Source: Spongiibacter sp. IMCC21906 (GTDB lineage: Bacteria; Pseudomonadota; Gammaproteobacteria; Pseudomonadales; Spongiibacteraceae). From it: a stretch of DNA of 64,000 nt. Below are positions 31,980-40,384 of this stretch, piece by piece. Below the pieces are notes generated by a model. The model searched no databases, was not told the DNA's origin, and saw only the letters and a program-made list of their open reading frames with translations. The translations under genes were made by a program, and so were the position numbers. How positions within the stretch are numbered: the stretch's first letter is position 1; each line of letters starts with the position of its first letter. The stretch spans positions 1,317,001 to 1,381,000 of the forward strand of contig NZ_CP011477.1 of assembly GCF_001010805.1 (NCBI RefSeq). Direction: 5' to 3'.

Positions 31980-33230
31980 TTACGCAGATTTGCGCCGCAG
32001 GTGTCGGTTAGTTATTACCCCTGCCAGAAAAGCGGCGTCCCGACCGACATGGAAGAAGCGGCCCGAGCCCCAGGTGTTCATCCAGTTCAGACCGAGAAAG
32101 TAGAGACCCTCAATAGGGCTGACACCTCGCTGCTGTAAAGGGGCGCCTTTCTCATCTAGAGCATCCATCCTCAGGCAGTTGTAATCACTTTTGAAGCCAG
32201 TGGCCCAGACCACGGCGCTGATGTTTGAATTATTCATATTGAGTTGTTCCATCATGGGCGGTTGATAATCGCTGTGAATGTTGTCGTCAGGGGGGGCGGC
32301 AATACCGTTTTCTTGGATATAACTTTCAATGCCGTTGGTAATGCGCTTGGCCACGCTGTCGGCGTAGTCCAGGTTATCTAATAAGTCCCTGTCAAATCTC
32401 AAGGTGCCAGCTTCGGATGAACGGATGCGGCCATACAGTTTCATCCCTTGCTGAGCAAAAATTCGCAGGTTGATATCTCTGCCGCCATCGCGACCGGTCA
32501 CGTAGTGATTGGTGGCATGGGGGGCATTTTTCCCTTCAGGGTGCTCGTCGATGGTAGTCTCGTAGTAGCTCATTTCTTCAAGCCAGTTGACTACGTCTTT
32601 GCCTCGATAGCGACGGTTAACTCTGGGCGCATTGCCGACGCAGAGATGAACCTGGCGGCCAGCCAGATGGAGGTCTTCGGCGATCTGGCAGCCGGACTGA
32701 CCTGTTCCCACGACCATTACTTCGCCGTCGGGCAGCTGTTGGGGGTTGCGATAATCTCGGGAATGGATATGTGCCACCTTGTCCGGCATGCCTTTGGCGG
32801 CGGGCAAAATGTTAGGATGGTGATAGCCGCCGGTAGCAACCACCAAATGCTCGGCCGAGTAGTGTTGGCCACCGCACGCTACTTTGAAGCGTCCATTTTC
32901 CTTGGTCGCGCTGGTCACCGGACTATTGAAGCGCACCGGTGCTTGGCTGAAACGGTAATAACTTTCGACATAGTCGATAATTTGATCTTTGACCATAAAA
33001 CCGTCGGGATCGTTACCGGCGTAGTGCATGCCCGGCAATTGGCATTGCCAATTCGGTGTGACTAGGCAGAAGCTGTCCCAGCGCTCGTTGCGCCAGTTGC
33101 TGGCCACCCGGTCGTTGCGTTCCAGTAGGATATGGTCGATGCCTTGTTGGCTCAGGCAGTAGCTCATTGATAGGCCGGCCTGGCCAGCGCCGATGATAAT
33201 GCAGCTGTAATGTTCGGTTAGGGTGTTCAT
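31980..33230 (-). CDS. Nit1C flavin-dependent oxidoreductase (MSMEG_0569 family, NitH)
   Basis: FAD- and NADPH-dependent monooxygenase-like enzyme, last gene of the Nit1C cluster. The 416-aa protein has the FAD motif CIIIGAGQAGLSMSYCLSQQG, a second Rossmann motif VMVVGTGQSGCQIAEDL for NADPH, and VVWATGFKSDYNCL near the C-terminus, the layout of flavin monooxygenases. It is 68 bp downstream of the small NitG gene, the only larger gap apart from those around nitC. The substrate is not known; within the cluster it may oxidise the product of the radical SAM or nitrilase step. Family assignment rests on gene context and overall sequence look. Confidence 0.9.
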   Translation of the reverse strand: MNTLTEHYSCIIIGAGQAGLSMSYCLSQQGIDHILLERNDRVASNWRNERWDSFCLVTPNWQCQLPGMHYAGNDPDGFMVKDQIIDYVESYYRFSQAPVRFNSPVTSATKENGRFKVACGGQHYSAEHLVVATGGYHHPNILPAAKGMPDKVAHIHSRDYRNPQQLPDGEVMVVGTGQSGCQIAEDLHLAGRQVHLCVGNAPRVNRRYRGKDVVNWLEEMSYYETTIDEHPEGKNAPHATNHYVTGRDGGRDINLRIFAQQGMKLYGRIRSSEAGTLRFDRDLLDNLDYADSVAKRITNGIESYIQENGIAAPPDDNIHSDYQPPMMEQLNMNNSNISAVVWATGFKSDYNCLRMDALDEKGAPLQQRGVSPIEGLYFLGLNWMNTWGSGRFFHVGRDAAFLAGVITNRHLRRKSA

Positions 33231-33298: not shown

Positions 33299-33589
33299 TT
33301 ATTGGCGAAATTCCAGTACTTGAATTTCGCCGCTGATTTTTTGCGTGTGGAGTTGTTTGAGCTTCGTTTCTAGAGTCGCTAGCTCGGCGCTGGCAGCGGA
33401 ACAGGCGTAGCCGAAGCGCTCCTGGACCCGGTCCGATGCCCGGGTCAGTGCCTGACGAATACGCTCACCGAAGTCCCGCTGGCTGTAGCTGGTGCCCGCC
33501 TCAAGGTGCTGGTAAATCACGGTGGAGGGCGAGTAGTACTGGGCCTGCTCGCCATCGGGCCAGATCAGGGTGAAATTTACTGCGGGCAT
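33299..33589 (-). CDS. Nit1C small protein (MSMEG_0570 family, nitrogen starvation response; NitG)
   Basis: A 96-aa protein of unknown function always found in this cluster. Features: VNFTLIWPDGEQAQYYSPST, then YSQRDFGERIRQALTRASDRVQERFGYACSAA, then a helical end with a final strand GEIQVLEFRQ. It has no known catalytic motif; a carrier or subunit role for one of the enzymes is possible. ATG 33589 has GGAGG six bases upstream, so the much longer frame open upstream (to 33967) is rejected. It overlaps the end of the AIR-synthase gene by 13 bp, indicating coupled translation. Confidence 0.9.
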   Translation of the reverse strand: MPAVNFTLIWPDGEQAQYYSPSTVIYQHLEAGTSYSQRDFGERIRQALTRASDRVQERFGYACSAASAELATLETKLKQLHTQKISGEIQVLEFRQ

Positions 33590-34620
33590 GTGCTGCCTCC
33601 CATGGCGGTGAGAGTGTTTTGTTTGAGGTCCCAGAAGGTTTCCCGGCTGCCGTAATAGTCCAGCTCGATGCAACCGCTGCCAGTAATCGTGCCAACCGGG
33701 ATACAGCTCAGGTGGCTGTGTTGAAAGTAGCCGATCAGTCCTTGGACCTGGTCGGGCTCCACCGCCAGCAAAAAGCCAAAGGCCTGAAATGCCCGCAGCC
33801 AGCGAAGCAGGTCGCCGGGTGGCCGGGGAATGGCGCTGATATCCAGCGTGGCGCCGCAGCCGGTCAGTTCCAGCATCATCAGCAGGGTGCCCAGCACGCC
33901 GCCACCACTGATATCTTTGGCGGCCACAGCCAGGTCCCGTTCGGCCAGCTCGGCGGGGCACTGCCATTGCTGGCGAATCTGTTTTGGGCTTTTACCGCCC
34001 ACACAACCCCAGTAGGGCTGCTTGCCGTGCCAGCTGCCGGTGAAGTCACTGAGAATGAATAGGCGTTGCCCCGGCCGCAGGTGGTGGCAGGAGAGCAGCT
34101 TGTGGGCGTGGCCAATAATGGCCACTGCCAGGTTGGCCCGGTAGTCGCTGCGGATGCTGCTGTGCCCCCCGGCAAACTGCAGGCCAAACACGTCACAGGC
34201 GCGTTTGATATGAAACAGCAGCTCCTTGCTGGCCTCGTCGTCGTGATGCCAAAAGGCATTGGCGATGGCGGTTGGGCGGCCGCCCATGGCGGCGATGTCG
34301 CTGACGTTGGCCATGACCGAGGACCAGCCAGCCGCCTTGGGGTCCTTGGCGACAAAGTCAGGCAGCATGCCTTCCATGGCCAATAGTTGATAGCCATCAG
34401 TGCAGGCAAAGGCGGCGCAGTCATCGCCCGGGGCGGCGTAGCGCTGTTGCAAGCTAAGGGACTCAGCGCTGCTCTGGGCGCTGAGCGCGGCGGCATGGCG
34501 GATAGCTGATTTACTGGCGATTTCCGGCAGCTCGCGCAACTGCTGACAAAGTTCGGCCAACTGCAATTGGCGCTCTTCTGGGCTCAGGGTAAAGCTTGGC
34601 CGCTTGTGCAGGGGGCGCAT
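33577..34620 (-). CDS. Nit1C AIR synthase-like protein (sll0787 family, NitF)
   Basis: PurM/ThiL/SelD-like ATP-dependent enzyme. The 347-aa protein has the AIRS N domain (DDCAAFACTDGYQLLAMEGMLP; VMANVSDIAAMGGRPTAIANAF is the conserved Asp-Ile-Ala-Ala-Met-Gly block) and an AIRS C domain (AAKDISGGGVLGTLLMMLE). These motifs bind ATP and Mg and activate an amide or carboxylate as an acyl phosphate in related enzymes, so ATP-driven cyclisation or amidation in the Nit1C pathway is a reasonable inference. ATG 34620 overlaps the GNAT stop as TGATG and has GGGAG eight bases upstream; ATG 34626 is an alternative two codons earlier. Confidence 0.9.
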   Translation of the reverse strand: MRPLHKRPSFTLSPEERQLQLAELCQQLRELPEIASKSAIRHAAALSAQSSAESLSLQQRYAAPGDDCAAFACTDGYQLLAMEGMLPDFVAKDPKAAGWSSVMANVSDIAAMGGRPTAIANAFWHHDDEASKELLFHIKRACDVFGLQFAGGHSSIRSDYRANLAVAIIGHAHKLLSCHHLRPGQRLFILSDFTGSWHGKQPYWGCVGGKSPKQIRQQWQCPAELAERDLAVAAKDISGGGVLGTLLMMLELTGCGATLDISAIPRPPGDLLRWLRAFQAFGFLLAVEPDQVQGLIGYFQHSHLSCIPVGTITGSGCIELDYYGSRETFWDLKQNTLTAMGGSTCPQ

Positions 34621-35330
34621 CAGCATGTCTCCCGGGTCTGTGCTGGCTCGTCAAGCAGCAGGGTTGGTGGCGGCAGCTGGGGCAGAGGATAGTGATTCAG
34701 ATCGGCGACCATGCGCAAATGGGGGCGACCGCCAATGTCCAGCTCTTCGATGGTGTGCCAGTGCAGGCTGCTGAAATAGCGGCCATTCTGTTTTTGCACA
34801 AAGGCGTGGAAGTGCTGGCAGCCCAGGTGTTTTGCCCGGCTGACGGCGGTGTTGATCAGAGCCTTGCCGATGCCGGCCCGTCCCCGGTAGGGCCTGACTA
34901 CGCACAGCCGTCCACCAAACCAAAGACCTGGCCAACGGGGGTCATCCACTGGAAAAATTCTCACCGCGCCGACCACGTCGTCGCTGATGCCGCACAGATT
35001 GGCGAGCGCGATAATGGCAGTGGCGCGGAAGTCTTCGCCATCCTGCTCTTGTATTGGCAGTTGCTGCTCTCCGGAGAAGACCTTTTTGCGCAGAGCAAAA
35101 TAGCGGGCCCGCTCCCAGGAGGCCGTCGCTGGTCGGACACTGATTTGGGTAGTGTGAAACTCGCCGAAACTGTCGCTAGCATGGCCGCTCGCGCCCAGTT
35201 CAACCCGGCTATAGGCCTGGCTAAGAGACTCGCTGCCGCCTTGAATCTGACGACTCACGCTGGCGGTAATGGCGTAGAAATGCCGACTTGGCGTCGCTCG
35301 GTGGTGACGGCTTTGGGTGATCTCAGGCAT
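34620..35330 (-). CDS. Nit1C GNAT N-acetyltransferase (MSMEG_0567/sll0786 family, NitE)
   Basis: A 236-aa GNAT-fold acyltransferase. Acetyl-CoA binding is suggested by LCVVRPYRGRAGIGKALINTAV, which carries the R-x-x-G-x-G/A pyrophosphate loop, after the VVGAVRIFPVDD strand. An N-terminal segment of about 60 residues precedes the GNAT core. The acyl acceptor is unknown; an amine made by the upstream enzymes is the natural guess. The start overlaps the radical SAM stop by 8 bp and the stop overlaps the start of the AIR synthase gene. Confidence 0.9.
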   Translation of the reverse strand: MPEITQSRHHRATPSRHFYAITASVSRQIQGGSESLSQAYSRVELGASGHASDSFGEFHTTQISVRPATASWERARYFALRKKVFSGEQQLPIQEQDGEDFRATAIIALANLCGISDDVVGAVRIFPVDDPRWPGLWFGGRLCVVRPYRGRAGIGKALINTAVSRAKHLGCQHFHAFVQKQNGRYFSSLHWHTIEELDIGGRPHLRMVADLNHYPLPQLPPPTLLLDEPAQTRETC

Positions 35331-36447
35331 TGACCACCTCTAATTGTCGGTTTGGAAGGGCAGTCTCATAACTTTTCAGGCTGGAGCAGGCGCCGCATTT
35401 GGCGCAGCCAGCCTTGAGGGCTTCCGATTGCATATTGCTGTTGGCCAGCGCTGGACCGAGAACGCAGAAGATACGATCGAGCATTGCAGGGTCCGGCCGT
35501 GGGTGATCTGCCAGGGGGGTGCCGGCCACCGGTACGAAGGGCACTACGAAGGGATAGACGCCCATGTCTATGAGGTTTAGGCTCATGGTGATGATTTCAT
35601 CTTCGGTGTCGCCCAGCCCGGCCAGAATGTAGGTGCTGACATTACCAGCTCCGAACAGGGACACCGCTTTGGCAAAAGCCGACATATAGCGGTTCAAGGG
35701 CACGCTCGCCTTGCCCGGCATAATGGCATTGCGTACCCGCTCGCTGACTGCTTCAAGATGCATTCCCAGTGCGTCGGCGCCGGCGTCTTTGAGCCGTTCC
35801 AGCCAAATGTCCTCACTGGGCGGTTCGCATTGGGCCTGAATGGGGATGTTCACTCTGGCTTTGACGGCCTTGATCGATTCCACTAACACTGCCGCGCCCC
35901 GGTCGAGGGTTTTGGGGGTGCCTGTGGTCATGATCATCTGACTGACGCCATCCAGGGCGACGGCGGCAGCTGCGACCTCGGCCAATTGCTCCGGGCGTTT
36001 GTGGGCGATAGTTTTGCCCAACTTGAGGGATTCCTCAATGGCGCAGAATTGGCAGGAGGTGCTGCGGTTGCGGTAGCGGACGCATTCCTGCAAAACCGTT
36101 GTTGCCAGTACATCCTTGCTGTGGAGGGTGGCAATTTGGCTGTAGGGTATGCCCTCGGCTGTACATAAATTATAAAACTGGGGTTGCATGGGGACGCTGG
36201 TTTTGGCAATCAGCTGGCCGCCCTCGAATACCTCAACCTGCTGGCTGCTCGAGTCAAGTTTAGCGGAGAAGTGGGCCCCGCTGGCTGGCCGGTTGAAGAC
36301 CGGAATCATAGCGGTCTGGCCGTGGAAATCCAGGGCCTTGTGGTCGGTGGGACCCGCACCGCCCCGGCGTACCAGACCGAGGTCCTCGTGTTGCCAGTGG
36401 ATACCATGGCTTTGCAGGCGGGTAAGCTGTTGTGGATCTATCGTCAT
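35323..36447 (-). CDS. Nit1C radical SAM protein (MSMEG_0568 family, NitD)
   Basis: A 374-aa radical S-adenosylmethionine enzyme. The cluster cysteines are C122, C132 and C135, giving CX9CX2C (CVRYRNRSTSCQFC) rather than the usual CX3CX2C. A TIM-barrel core follows (TTGTPKTLDRG, PIQAQCEPP, ALGMHLEAVSERVRNAIMPGK, STYILAGLGDTEDE), resembling biotin-synthase-like enzymes. Near the C-terminus CAKCGAC offers three more cysteines, possibly a second metal site. ATG 36447 has AGGAG eight bases upstream; the frame extends upstream to 36669 across the nitrilase end but that part is not family-like. The substrate is unknown. Confidence 0.93.
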   Translation of the reverse strand: MTIDPQQLTRLQSHGIHWQHEDLGLVRRGGAGPTDHKALDFHGQTAMIPVFNRPASGAHFSAKLDSSSQQVEVFEGGQLIAKTSVPMQPQFYNLCTAEGIPYSQIATLHSKDVLATTVLQECVRYRNRSTSCQFCAIEESLKLGKTIAHKRPEQLAEVAAAAVALDGVSQMIMTTGTPKTLDRGAAVLVESIKAVKARVNIPIQAQCEPPSEDIWLERLKDAGADALGMHLEAVSERVRNAIMPGKASVPLNRYMSAFAKAVSLFGAGNVSTYILAGLGDTEDEIITMSLNLIDMGVYPFVVPFVPVAGTPLADHPRPDPAMLDRIFCVLGPALANSNMQSEALKAGCAKCGACSSLKSYETALPNRQLEVVNA

Positions 36448-36520
36448 CACTGCTCTCCTGAATATCATTCCCGTTGCGGTTTCATCGTGGAGGGGGTGCC
36501 CGTTGAGTTCGCCGCTGTCC

Positions 36521-37564
36521 TCAATGGCCCGGTCCAGCGCTTGCCGCGGGCAGGTCAAGATCGCCCCGGGATTCATTCTCAGCGCTGTTGGGCTGAAAGT
36601 CGGTGTTGCTGGGTTGAAGGTCGGCTGTTGCCGATATCGCTTGGCTGTGGGGCCGGGGGCTGCGATCAATCAACAGGCTGAGCAGCTCCGGGCGGCTGTA
36701 GTGGCCCACCGAATCCATCATCCGTTTACGTTTTGCGATCAGCGCCATATCTAGCTCGGCAATACAAGCGCCCTCTCCGGATTCGCTGGTTAAGGGCTCG
36801 CCCAGCAGGCGCCCTTCCGGTGAAACAATGGCGCTAAAGCAGCCACCACTGATGGCGGCGAGGGGACCACCGGTGTCGTCCACCACCTGTTGTTGTTGCT
36901 CTGGGCTCAGCCAGCTGGTGGCGTTGACAACGAAACAGCCCGACTCCAATGCGTGGTGGCGGATGGTGACTTGAATTTGTTCGGCGAAAATTTCACCCAC
37001 CAAAGAGCCGGGAAAGGTGGCAACGTGAATTTCTTCCCGGTCGACCATCAAAGCGTAGCGGGCCAGTGGGTTGTAGTGCTCCCAGCAAGCCAGCGAACCG
37101 ATGCGGCCTACGGCGGAATCCACTGCGCTCAGGCCGCTGCCATCCCCTTGTCCCCAGACCATTCGTTCGTGGTAGGTGGGGGTAATTTTGCGGCGGTGCT
37201 GGATCAAACGGCCATCGGCATCAAACAACAGTTGGGCGTTGTACAGGGTTTTGCCGTCCAGTTCGTTAACCCCTACCGACACCACCATGCCGGCTTTGGC
37301 GGCGGCGGCGGCAATGTGCTGGGTGTGCCGGGATGGCACCGTCACGGCTTCGGTCATCAGTTGCAGGTGCTGCTTAGCCATGGCGTAGGGTGCCTGCACA
37401 AAGGAGAAGTAAGGGTAGTAAGGCACCACCGTTTCGGGAAACACGGCAAACTGCACCCCCTGCTGGGCCAGCTTTTCGATCCAGTCGCAAATTTTGCTAA
37501 CCGTGCCTTCACAAGAGTAGAGCGAGGGGCTGCACTGCACGGCGGCGGCAAGTATCTTGGCCAT
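36521..37564 (-). CDS. Nit1C nitrilase (Nit6803 family, NitC)
   Basis: Carbon-nitrogen hydrolase converting a nitrile to an acid and ammonia; relatives such as Synechocystis Nit6803 act on a broad range of nitriles. The 347-aa protein has the Glu-Lys-Cys triad: E44 in [14 protein letters not shown]126 in [19 protein letters not shown] and C160 in [15 protein letters not shown] 37564 ([10 protein letters not shown]) has GAGG five bases upstream. The last about 45 residues form a Ser/Pro/Asn-rich tail with a repeated DLQPSN/DFQPNS element, longer than I expect for the family. It lies 132 bp after the sll0783-type gene and 73 bp before the radical SAM gene. Confidence 0.95.
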
Positions 37565-37696
37565 AGTGTCCTCAGTTGTGGTGTGGGTGCTTGCTGCCAC
37601 GTTGGCGGCAAGCGGAATATCTGCCAGGAATGGGGCGCAGCGCGCACCCACCCTGATTACGGCGTTTGTTGCTAATGGTGCATGTGTAGCGCGGCC

Positions 37697-38179
37697 TTAG
37701 GTGGTCCATGTGTGGACCATAAAGGCGTTATCCCTAGCCATTAGAAGTTGCAGGTCCATCACATCCAGTGGGTTTATGGGGCGAATTCCCTCAATCAGGG
37801 CTTTTTCGGTCTGACCGTAGAGTGCTTGCAGGGCAAAGCGGCAGGCATAGACTTCACCACCTTCCTCCATAAAGGCCTTGAGCTGGTTGTTGCAGGCTAG
37901 GTGGCCGGGGAATGCTTCGGCGCCGAGGGTGGGGAAGCCGCGCTGGACGCCTAGTTGTACGCCGGGTCCGTAGAGCAGCACTTTGGTTTCAAAGCCCTTT
38001 CTTAGCAGGCGCTTGGCTTGCAGCAGGTTGACCAGACCAATCGAGCCCTCAAAGGCAACGGTATGGAAGGTGATCAGGGCTTTGGCTCCGGGTGCGGCTT
38101 GGACGTCCTCAAACACTTTCTCTTCGTAATCGACCAGAAAGTCACCATCTTTGTAATGGGCTGTCTCCACAGTAGGCAT
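37697..38179 (-). CDS. Nit1C first gene, Sll0783/MSMEG_0572 family nitrogen starvation response protein (NitB)
   Basis: A 160-aa protein of unknown biochemistry; the Synechocystis homologue sll0783 is strongly induced on nitrogen starvation and affects polyhydroxybutyrate accumulation. The sequence looks like a DsrE-like alpha/beta fold: [40 protein letters not shown] resembles the strand-helix-strand of DsrE/TusD proteins, with a cysteine later (EVYACRFAL) at a place where such proteins carry a reactive Cys. That fold is inference. ATG 38179 has AGGA eight bases upstream. It is first in the operon, preceded by the candidate sigma-54 promoter. Confidence 0.92.
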
Positions 38180-38247: not shown

Positions 38248-38263
38248 AGCGAAAGCTGTACCA
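38248..38263 (-). promoter_or_regulatory. Candidate sigma-54 promoter of the Nit1C operon
   Basis: On the minus strand TGGTACAGCTTTCGCT fits the -24/-12 consensus TGGCAC-N5-TTGCW with GG and GC exactly 10 bases apart. The expected start site near 38236 gives a leader of about 57 nt to the first gene. A sigma-54 activator is encoded divergently at 38471, which supports the call. The 38281-38380 region upstream is AT-rich, as expected for a bendable segment, though no clean IHF site is seen. Confidence 0.72.
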
Positions 38264-38385
38264 GTCTGAACTGGGTAGTGAAAAAATCTTTGCTGAGGAT
38301 TATAAAATCAAATAAAAACAGTGCTTTATGGGATTTATTAGTTTTGTTTTGGGCTGAATGCTGAGAATCTCGCATTAAAAAGTTA

Positions 38386-38399
38386 TTCGCAAATGCGTA
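38386..38399. promoter_or_regulatory. Candidate upstream activator site 1 (TTCGCA-AA-TGCGTA)
   Basis: A 14-bp near-palindrome, closely matching site 2. Its centre is about 40 bp from that of site 2, close to four DNA turns. It lies about 130 bp upstream of the candidate -24 element of the Nit1C operon, a typical enhancer distance for sigma-54 activators. The binding protein is presumably the divergent NitA. Confidence 0.65.
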
Positions 38400-38404
38400 G
38401 TTCT

Positions 38405-38416
38405 ACGAATATTCGT
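38405..38416. promoter_or_regulatory. Perfect 12-bp palindrome ACGAATATTCGT between the two activator sites
   Basis: ACGAATATTCGT is self-complementary and shares the outer ACG/CGT triplets with the flanking sites but not their TGCG core. It might be a third, degenerate site or the operator of another regulator. Confidence 0.4.
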
Positions 38417-38425
38417 TTTCTATGT

Positions 38426-38439
38426 TACGCAAGTGCGTA
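38426..38439. promoter_or_regulatory. Candidate upstream activator site 2 (TACGCA-AG-TGCGTA)
   Basis: Perfect 6+6 inverted repeat with a 2-bp spacer. It lies 31 bp before the nitA start codon, so a bound activator could also shut down its own gene. It shares CGCAAxTGCGTAG with site 1. Confidence 0.68.
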
Positions 38440-38470: not shown

Positions 38471-40384
38471 ATGCGCTTTGATCTGTTGGACACTAACGAT
38501 GAGTGGGGAAAGCTGGCTTACTGGATGCGTCACGCTGCTTTTGAGCAATGCACTGAACCACTGATGTTACTTGACCCCCATAATAACCAGTACATCGACT
38601 GTAATATTGCGGCCTGTGATTTATTGGGCTACAGCCGCGCCGAAATTCTCCGCATGCCTATTTCCCGCATTCACGGCCGAGAGCTGGGCCAATTAATCGT
38701 TTTTACTGAACAGGTGATGGCCCAAGGACGGGCTTGGAGCTCGCGAATTTCATGTCGGCTCAAAAACAGTGAACATGTGCCCGTTGAGCTGGCGGGTGCC
38801 CGGGCGGTGATTAAGCGCAGAGAGTATTTGGTTGTTGCCATTCGAGATGTGCGCTCAGATGAGCAGAGCCGGGAGCTGGCTCAGGCCGACCGCATCGTTC
38901 GCGGTGGCCTGCTTGAGTGGAAGCATTTACAGAATATCTTCCAACAAGGCGAGCGGGAAAATCTGCTGATGTTGACCTCGGTGGGAGATGGCATTTACTG
39001 CGTTGATACTCAGGGTTTGTGCACTTTTATGAATCCGGCGGCGATGAGGCTATTTGGTCGTAGCGATCGAGATGTACTGGGTCACAATGTTCACTATGTC
39101 CACCACCACACTCATGAAGATGGTCGCCATTACCCTGTAGAGGAGTGCCCGATTTACGCGGCTATTCGCGATGGAGTGGTGCACGAAGGGGGGCAAGAGA
39201 TCTTCTGGAAGCAAGACGGCACGCCTTTCCCGGTAGAGTTTACCAGCACGCCAATAATTAAAGATCGCGCCATTATTGGCGCGGTAGTGGTGTTTCGTGA
39301 TATCAGCACTAGGATCGAAACCGAGCGTAAATTACGTGATGCTTTGGAGGAATTAGGTGATTTAAAATCTCGTCTGGAAGATGAAAACGCTTACTTGCAG
39401 CAGGAGATTCTGATCGAGCAGCGATACCATGGCATCCTTGGCGACAGTGAATCGGTGCGGCGACTCTTACAGCAAATAGAGATGGTGGCCGAGACTGAGG
39501 CGAACGTCTTGATTACCGGGGAGTCTGGTACCGGCAAGGAGCTGATAGCCAGAGCCATTCACGAAGCTAGCCCTCGAAAGGATAACGCTCTGATCAGGGT
39601 AAATTGCGCCGCCATTCCCCATGAGCTGTTTGAAAGCGAATTCTTTGGTCATATCCGGGGCGCATTTACTGGCGCAGTCAGAGATCGTATTGGTCGCTTT
39701 GAATTGGCAAATGGCGGCACCTTGTTTTTGGACGAGGTAGGGGAAATTCCGTTGGAGTTGCAAAGTAAATTGCTGCGGGTTTTGCAGGAAGGACAGCTGG
39801 AACGGGTGGGAGAAGAGCGTACCCGGGATGTCAATGTGCGCATCATTGCAGCAACCAACAAGGATTTAAAAGGGGAAGTGGCCCGGCAGTATTTTCGCGA
39901 GGATCTGTATTTTCGCCTCAACGTATTTCCTATTCATTCACCACCGCTGAGGGATCGGGGTGAAGATATTGGCCTTTTGGCCAGCCACTTTTTTGACCAG
40001 GCCTGTCAAAAATTCAATCAGGGCGGTGGTCGCCTGACCCAAGGAGATCTACGTCGCTTGCAGGCTTATAACTGGCCCGGCAATATCAGAGAATTACAGA
40101 ATGTAATGGAGCGGGCGGCTATTACAGCCCGTAATGGCCGTGCTGCAATAGATTTGCCAGTGTCGGTGGAGCAGGCGGTAGCACCGTCGGGGGAGATGGA
40201 GGACGACTCGAAAAGCATTCTGTCTGACGATGAAATGCAGGCCTTTTTGCGACGTAATATGTTGGCAGCATTAGAGCGCTGTAATTGGAAGTTATTTGGC
40301 AGTGATGGTGCTGCGGCGCTGTTGGGTATGAAACCTACCACGCTAGCTTCGAGGATTAAGCGGATGGGTTTGCAGCGGGGGTAG
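38471..40384 (+). CDS. Sigma-54-dependent PAS-domain transcriptional activator of the Nit1C cluster (NitA)
   Basis: A 637-aa enhancer-binding protein. Two PAS domains (about residues 20-130 and 155-280) are followed by a short coiled coil (about 285-320), an AAA+ domain with Walker A GESGTGKE (about 350), the sigma-54 contact loop GAFTGA (about 396) and Walker [12 protein letters not shown], and a Fis-type helix-turn-helix at the C-terminus ([20 protein letters not shown]). There is no receiver domain, so the signal is sensed directly, perhaps by a PAS ligand. ATG 38471 has GGGGAG upstream. It is divergent from the seven-gene nitrilase operon and is the obvious activator of it. Confidence 0.95.

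Follow-up and report, generated by a model that had tools for sequence, protein, structure and literature searches.

Three putative NitA operators and a predicted sigma-54 promoter in the probable control region between nitA and the nitBCDEFGH operon of Spongiibacter sp. IMCC21906

We found that the 291 bp separating nitA from the divergent nitB gene in Spongiibacter sp. IMCC21906 are with high probability a shared control region, in which RpoN would act at a -24/-12 element while NitA very probably binds three palindromes, activates nitBCDEFGH together with RpoN and regulates its own gene. All positions given here refer to the window, the whole stretch of 64,000 nucleotides that was analysed, and its features are collected in Table 1. 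Direct reading of the sequence bore out the elements that a first-pass annotation of this DNA had placed in the region. On the minus strand, from 38263 to 38248, TGGTACAGCTTTCGCT carries GG (38262-38261) and GC (38250-38249) spaced by ten bases, and the transcription start of the operon is predicted at about 38237. Two palindromes, with centres at 38392.5 and 38432.5, are exactly 40 bp apart. A third palindrome that had been noted between these two, ACGAATATTCGT at 38405-38416, is also present, but it is no unrelated extra, being the inner part of a site equivalent to the outer ones; the array thus consists of three 14-bp TACG-N6-CGTA-like sites, with starts 22 and 18 bp apart. Across loci the starts are 22 or 23, then 18 bp apart, so that although the described pair at 40 bp exists, it is not the unit. 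The motif CGCAAxTGCGTAG that had been put forward for NitA had to be replaced by the TACG-N6-CGTA-like motif; in Acinetobacter, Xenorhabdus and Photorhabdus many half-sites read TATGAA. In a genome-wide scan O1 was the sole exact match to TACGCANNTGCGTA. The array site closest to the nitA ATG lies 31 bp from it.

Table 1. Features of the nitA-nitB control region and of the Nit1C cluster in the window.
Feature	Position	Strand	Description	Basis
nitA	38471..40384	+	PAS-PAS-AAA+(GAFTGA) enhancer-binding protein with a putative C-terminal Fis-type HTH, 637 aa	Pfam Sigma54_activat 1.9e-72, PAS
O1, putative NitA operator	38426..38439	.	TACGCAAGTGCGTA; nearest nitA	Sequence, genome scan
O2, putative NitA operator	38404..38417	.	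TACGAATATTCGTT; middle	Starts 18 bp from O3, 22 bp from O1
O3, putative NitA operator	38386..38399	.	TTCGCAAATGCGTA; promoter-proximal	Sequence, array conservation
-24/-12 (sigma-54) core promoter of nitBCDEFGH	38248..38263	-	TGGTACAGCTTTCGCT	Sequence, conservation
nitB	37697..38179	-	First gene of operon, MSMEG_0572/Sll0783 family	TIGR04044, 277.7 bits (cut-off 109.85)
nitC	36521..37564	-	Nit6803-family nitrilase	TIGR04048, 508.7 bits (cut-off 502.6)
nitD	35323..36669	-	Radical SAM	TIGR04043
nitE	34620..35330	-	GNAT acetyltransferase	TIGR04045
nitF	33577..34626	-	AIR synthase-like	TIGR04049
nitG	33299..33590	-	Start approximate	TIGR04042
nitH	31980..33230	-	Flavin-dependent oxidoreductase	TIGR04046

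The window holds a complete Nit1C cluster on the minus strand, from nitB at 38179 down to the end of nitH at 31980, with the seven NCBIfam models all above cut-off and in the order nitB-nitC-nitD-nitE-nitF-nitG-nitH. The listed reading frames of nitG (33299-33967) and nitD (35323-36669) begin ahead of the probable true starts and run into nitF and nitC; the TIGR04042 match covers residues 128-209 of the longer nitG frame, the TIGR04043 match starts at residue 84 of nitD, and the start of nitC was picked by us within a longer frame (36521-37651). A single rpoN match was found in the 3.48-Mb genome (TIGR02395, 505 bits). In Pseudomonas pseudoalcaligenes CECT 5344, according to the accessible part of PMC6368324, the NitC nitrilase is essential for cyanide assimilation and the genes of the cluster are reportedly induced by cyanide-containing jewellery waste.

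The Walker A and GAFTGA motifs of NitA (G350-E357 and G397-A402) are invariant in nine aligned NitA proteins, as is a tail motif, GAAxLLGxxPTTLxS, that resembles a recognition helix by eye. At E<=0.001 the Pfam hits of the N-terminal part are PAS families, with neither GAF nor HTH_8 among the hits of the protein. The best NCBIfam model was NorR with 369.7 bits, below its cut-off of 476, and assignment of NitA to NorR, NifA, FhlA or PrdR was rejected because each scored below its curated cut-off. Residues 208-246, in the second PAS region (window 39092-39208), form a His/Cys stretch in which H208, H211-H213 and C226 are invariant in the nine proteins, possibly a signal or metal site. Relatives of NitA also occur on Acinetobacter plasmids of 80-221 kb (records H1-H15), with 52-55% identity over 98-100% of the protein.

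Motif strength was rejected as sole evidence for the control elements. The sigma-54 promoter consensus is GG-N10-GC, within TGGCACG-N4-TTGC, and the window element has 8 of its 11 letters; with up to three mismatches, this loose consensus occurred 524 times in the window, where 564 matches were expected. Palindromes with up to three mismatches numbered 12 in the window, below the shuffle mean of 26, and those with at most one mismatch numbered six in the 3.48-Mb genome, as in the reversed control. Because neither motif count exceeded chance in the window, nor that of the palindromes in the genome, strength alone was dropped. With regard to arrangement, two of the six palindromes lie 40 bp apart, which by our arithmetic (15 pairs x 80 / 3.47 Mb) has a chance of about 3.5e-4, and the third lies between them. 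The three-site pattern (22+18) had a single zero-mismatch match in the genome, the window array, and with up to three mismatches the only further match overlapped it, the reversed control giving 6 and 16. As to a second NitA target in the window's genome (G000), the two-site pattern with one mismatch had one other place there, and one one-mismatch palindrome (at L005) lies, by eye, within a reading frame. The score of the window's control region was reached by none of 300 dinucleotide shuffles. In our judgement, as far as sequence comparison carries, it is conservation that is decisive for the array being above chance.

A NitB scan of named genomes, of which the best 80 loci of a longer list were taken, gave 35 loci (L024-L058) with NitB 83-89% identical and a NitA match upstream in all, spanning Marinobacter, Pseudomonas, Stutzerimonas, Acinetobacter, Xenorhabdus, Photorhabdus and MAGs. 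Together with the window (L020) and a locus from the same genus (L019) they make up the first 37 NitA-type loci; later searches added L110, L111, L115 and L119-L138, bringing the NitA-type set to 60 loci, whose upstream sequences comprise 55 unique ones. When scored at fixed spacing, the array reached 29-35 of 36 in 59 of these 60 loci, against 19-24 in 65 Nit1C loci without divergent NitA, a 66th such locus (L084) standing outside this scoring for too little upstream DNA. We drew up the site consensus by eye on the first 37 loci, which makes the site scores of those 37 partly circular but leaves the spacing, and the later loci, free of circularity; many of the loci are close relatives. The twenty later loci L119-L138, scored without prior reading and several of them closely resembling earlier ones, all fit the array, as does L115. 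In a shuffle test of 39 loci, with L115 outside it, none of 300 shuffles reached the score in 38 loci and one of 300 did so for L025. The array is weak in L058 (25/36 at fixed spacing), and in L033 the best register is shifted. When eight NitA-type control regions, picked for NitA similarity of about 75% or more, were aligned, 38 columns were invariant, and 34 of these fall within the three sites and the -24/-12 element or at most three bases from them.

That NitA is the likely binder of the palindromes, as had been proposed, is upheld by this conservation in NitA-type loci and by the absence of the array from other Nit1C loci; a divergent NitA is found at 59 of the 60 NitA-type loci, the exception being L137, and at none of the 66 others. 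The palindromes may instead be operators of another protein, repressing nitA or both genes, with NitA binding elsewhere, since palindromes beside a promoter are typical of repressors too and no sigma-70 promoter for nitA was recognised in the window. We consider this unlikely: a separate repressor would need to accompany NitA unseen, through 59 of 60 NitA-type loci that score at least 29/36 and none of the 65 others, and the loci lacking the array have a non-NitA divergent regulator, where one was seen. Two further observations speak for NitA, namely arrays at both genes where these have become separated, and co-variation of the operators with the NitA tail.

The first comes from L137 (genome G1117, 6.4 Mb), where no NitA match was found within 1.5 kb upstream of nitB and nitB yet retains an array, 113 bp from the -24 element. 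In this genome nitA (59% identical) is at C35:16443-18329, on the nitB strand and 10.8 kb downstream of that gene, with its own three-site array, spaced 18+18 rather than 22/23+18 and ending 3 bp before the ATG. This array scores 31/36, a score reached by none of 1000 shuffles, and the 300 bp searched before the relocated gene held no -24/-12-like element scoring at least 8. A scan of the whole genome for the exact pattern of two adjoining sites gave three matches, of which two lie at nitA and the third at nitB. Allowing one mismatch added 18 places, noise-like, with 86 in the reversed control. Since arrays stand at both separated genes, the sites go with nitA and with nitB independently, and we regard L137 as the best evidence, at the sequence level, for the sites being NitA operators and for NitA acting on nitA. 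Its gene arrangement resembles that described for P. fluorescens NCIMB 11764 in the accessible part of PMC11049912.

As to the second, NitA proteins with operators of the form TACGC, TACTC or TACGA have the tail KPTTLxSRxK, and those of Acinetobacter, Xenorhabdus and Photorhabdus, where TATGAA half-sites are common, have NPTTLISxLKK. The change follows clades, and it is therefore consistent with co-evolution without proving it. The annotation had further proposed that NitA represses itself. The site positions and the array of the relocated nitA argue for autoregulation, but repression in particular stays conjectural. In 15 loci (L034, L035, L040, L041, L043, L045, L047, L049-L056) the first site is 0-3 bp from the likely nitA start, but the array lies 109 bp from the listed start in L057 and 74 bp in L058, so the picture of a site on the nitA start is not universal.

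When both spacings were left free (16-28 and 14-24 bp), the best triplets had (23,18) or (22,18) in 35 of the first 37 loci, the exceptions being L033 and L058, and 22/23 + 18 bp in 58 of all 60, an arrangement shown by only 0.7% of the best triplets of shuffles. It would thus be very improbable that the outer palindromes alone function and the middle one is incidental: within the window the outer pair is closest to TACGCANNTGCGTA, but those 58 loci all have the middle site in position in their best triplet, and in most Pseudomonas loci neither of the other two is as perfect a palindrome. Measured to the -24 element, the distances of the third site cluster at 104-105, 113-117 and 135-136 bp, with 79 (L058) and 139 (L024) off phase and the 134 of L033 coming from its shifted register. 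Helical phasing between array and promoter was nevertheless discarded as an argument, the Rayleigh R values of 0.73 and 0.66 carrying no weight because the distances had been hand-picked to thin relatives. A 9/9 match to the IHF consensus occurs in 16 of the first 37 loci, and in 13 of 15 Pseudomonas loci (L034, L035, L040, L041, L043, L045, L047, L049-L056) it lies 40-41 bp before the -24 element. No recognisable IHF site was found in the window, where the best match, 8/9, was reached in 83 of 200 shuffles, and an IHF bend is therefore not claimed.

Comparison of intergenic regions in relatives, the check suggested along with the annotation, supported the predicted sigma-54 promoter. Each of the first 37 NitA-type loci has GG-N10-GC at 62-107 bp before nitB, and it recurs in L110 and L111 and in 21 of 21 among L115 and L119-L138. 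The -24/-12 match could be fortuitous and nitB served by another promoter type, as the match is 8/11 and such matches are common in the window, but we give this scant credence in view of that conservation in the first 37 and all 21 later-scored loci, of the adjoining gene for a sigma-54 activator, and of scores of at least 9/11 reached by 63 of the 66 Nit1C loci that lack a divergent NitA. In these 66 (L007-L018, L059-L109, L112-L114), among which some genomes may count twice (L007 and L059, for example), L104 scores 8 and L063 and L100 have no element; for a 56-locus subset the count at 9/11 or above was 55, against about 2 expected from shuffles.

Nit1C clusters with a MocR-type regulator (Paraburkholderia, Caballeronia, Rhizobium and others) have the same operon as the NitA-type and a -24/-12 core, but a divergent GntR-aminotransferase (MocR) gene, no NitA array, often an NtrC-like site, and TTGC rather than TCGC at -12. 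Of the 66 loci that lack a divergent NitA, 59 have a divergent MocR-like gene, as against none of the 60 NitA-type loci; in L065 and L066 one lies further upstream, and none was found in the available upstream DNA of L064, L074, L078, L084 (140 bp) and L104. The five MocR-like genes sampled (L016, L059, L060, L067, L092) are GntR plus aminotransferase by Pfam. At L064 there is a LysR gene (Pfam), and L074, L078 and L102 show NitA-like matches on the nitB strand. In the two Polyangiaceae loci, L074 and L078, a sigma-54 activator-like gene stands upstream on the nitB strand, GAF-type by Pfam for L074 and seen by tblastn only for L078; this upstream activator is a third regulator type for the nit operon.

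The NtrC site consensus is GCACC-N5-GGTGC. Sites scoring at least 8/10 were found in 36 of the 63 loci that lack a divergent NitA and have the core at 9/11 or above, against about 5 in shuffles, the other 27 having no such site, and sites of at least 9/10 in 14 of 63, against 0.5; L084 scored 7, from a wrongly placed slice. None of 39 NitA-type loci reached 8, over a somewhat different stretch. The better NtrC-like sites lie about 130-175 bp upstream of the -24/-12 core. The -12 box reads TCGC in 56 of the 60 NitA-type loci and TTGC in 59 of the 63 others scored, so that its letter goes with the activator type.

Bacterial enhancer-binding proteins bind inverted repeats about 80-200 bp upstream of a promoter. 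In the mechanism that we infer, RpoN-RNA polymerase would wait 84 bp ahead of nitB, at the -24/-12 element, with NitA dimers on three palindromes centred about 155, 173 and 195 bp before the predicted transcription start. A signal, probably a nitrile, cyanide or nitrogen cue, would switch on the PAS-containing N-terminus of NitA, whereupon the AAA+ domains would assemble an active ring on the three-site scaffold, the GAFTGA loop would contact sigma-54 across a DNA loop and the promoter would open. The same bound NitA, lying upstream of nitA, would regulate its own gene, most likely by repression.

By analogy, such a mechanism would be of a known kind, namely a NorR-like triple enhancer. In the accessible parts of PMC2941729 and PMC1274295, E. 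coli NorR/norVW is described with three tandem inverted-repeat enhancer sites between regulator and operon, before a -24/-12 element, a layout that the putative NitA sites share by sequence. For NorR the three sites are indispensable and serve as scaffold for the oligomer (PMC2941729), and both known norVW and norAB promoter regions have three tandem sites (PMC1274295). For the relative NorR2 of Vibrionales a site near the regulator gene has been described, with negative autoregulation proposed (PMC2941729/PMC1274295). NitA differs in having PAS where NorR has GAF and in scoring below the NorR cut-off, and its operators are TACG-N6-CGTA rather than GT-N7-AC.

The distribution of the Nit1C cluster is patchy, with NitB above the family cut-off in 14 of 194 relatives, in 4 of 369 genomes of the class, in 24 of 390 of the order and, for the family to which G569 belongs, in 21 of 398, all of them sets that overlap. 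In a NitB+NitC tree of 105 sequences the NitA-type clusters formed one clade (39/39, support 1.0), L056 being outside the tree as nitC was not found on its stretch. The genus of the window has both types, NitA-type in L019 and L020 and others in L011, L013, L014 and L017, and whole clusters have therefore probably moved between lineages; the root of the tree, two Polyangiaceae, favours neither regulator state as the older one.

P. pseudoalcaligenes CECT 5344 has the same nitA and nitBCDEFGH with NitA as a divergent putative sigma-54 regulator, and the accessible parts of PMC11049912, PMC6368324 and PMC8567248 describe neither operators nor promoter for that cluster. Podar et al. 2005 state that they were unable to find conserved binding sites in front of the predicted operon (PMC1199592). 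Within the accessible text of these four papers we found no account of NitA operators; as far as we have seen, neither the operator code nor the way in which these clusters differ from other Nit1C clusters has been described before. Nor did the accessible literature on this question describe the combination of NtrC and MocR at one sigma-54 promoter.

We would put at about even the chance that the -24/-12 core of nit1C works as a fixed socket accepting interchangeable enhancer modules, these being the NitA array, NtrC with a PLP-binding MocR, and the Polyangiaceae activator. If so, one lineage would use NitA with a rigid 22/23 + 18 array and most others the global nitrogen activator NtrC, with the PLP-binding MocR acting at the same sigma-54 promoter as NtrC. 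Sorting the clusters by regulator yields a testable operator code with a small predicted regulon (nitA and nitB) and enables comparison of one sigma-54 promoter served by different activators, and it makes controlled induction of the operon for cyanide clean-up a concrete question.
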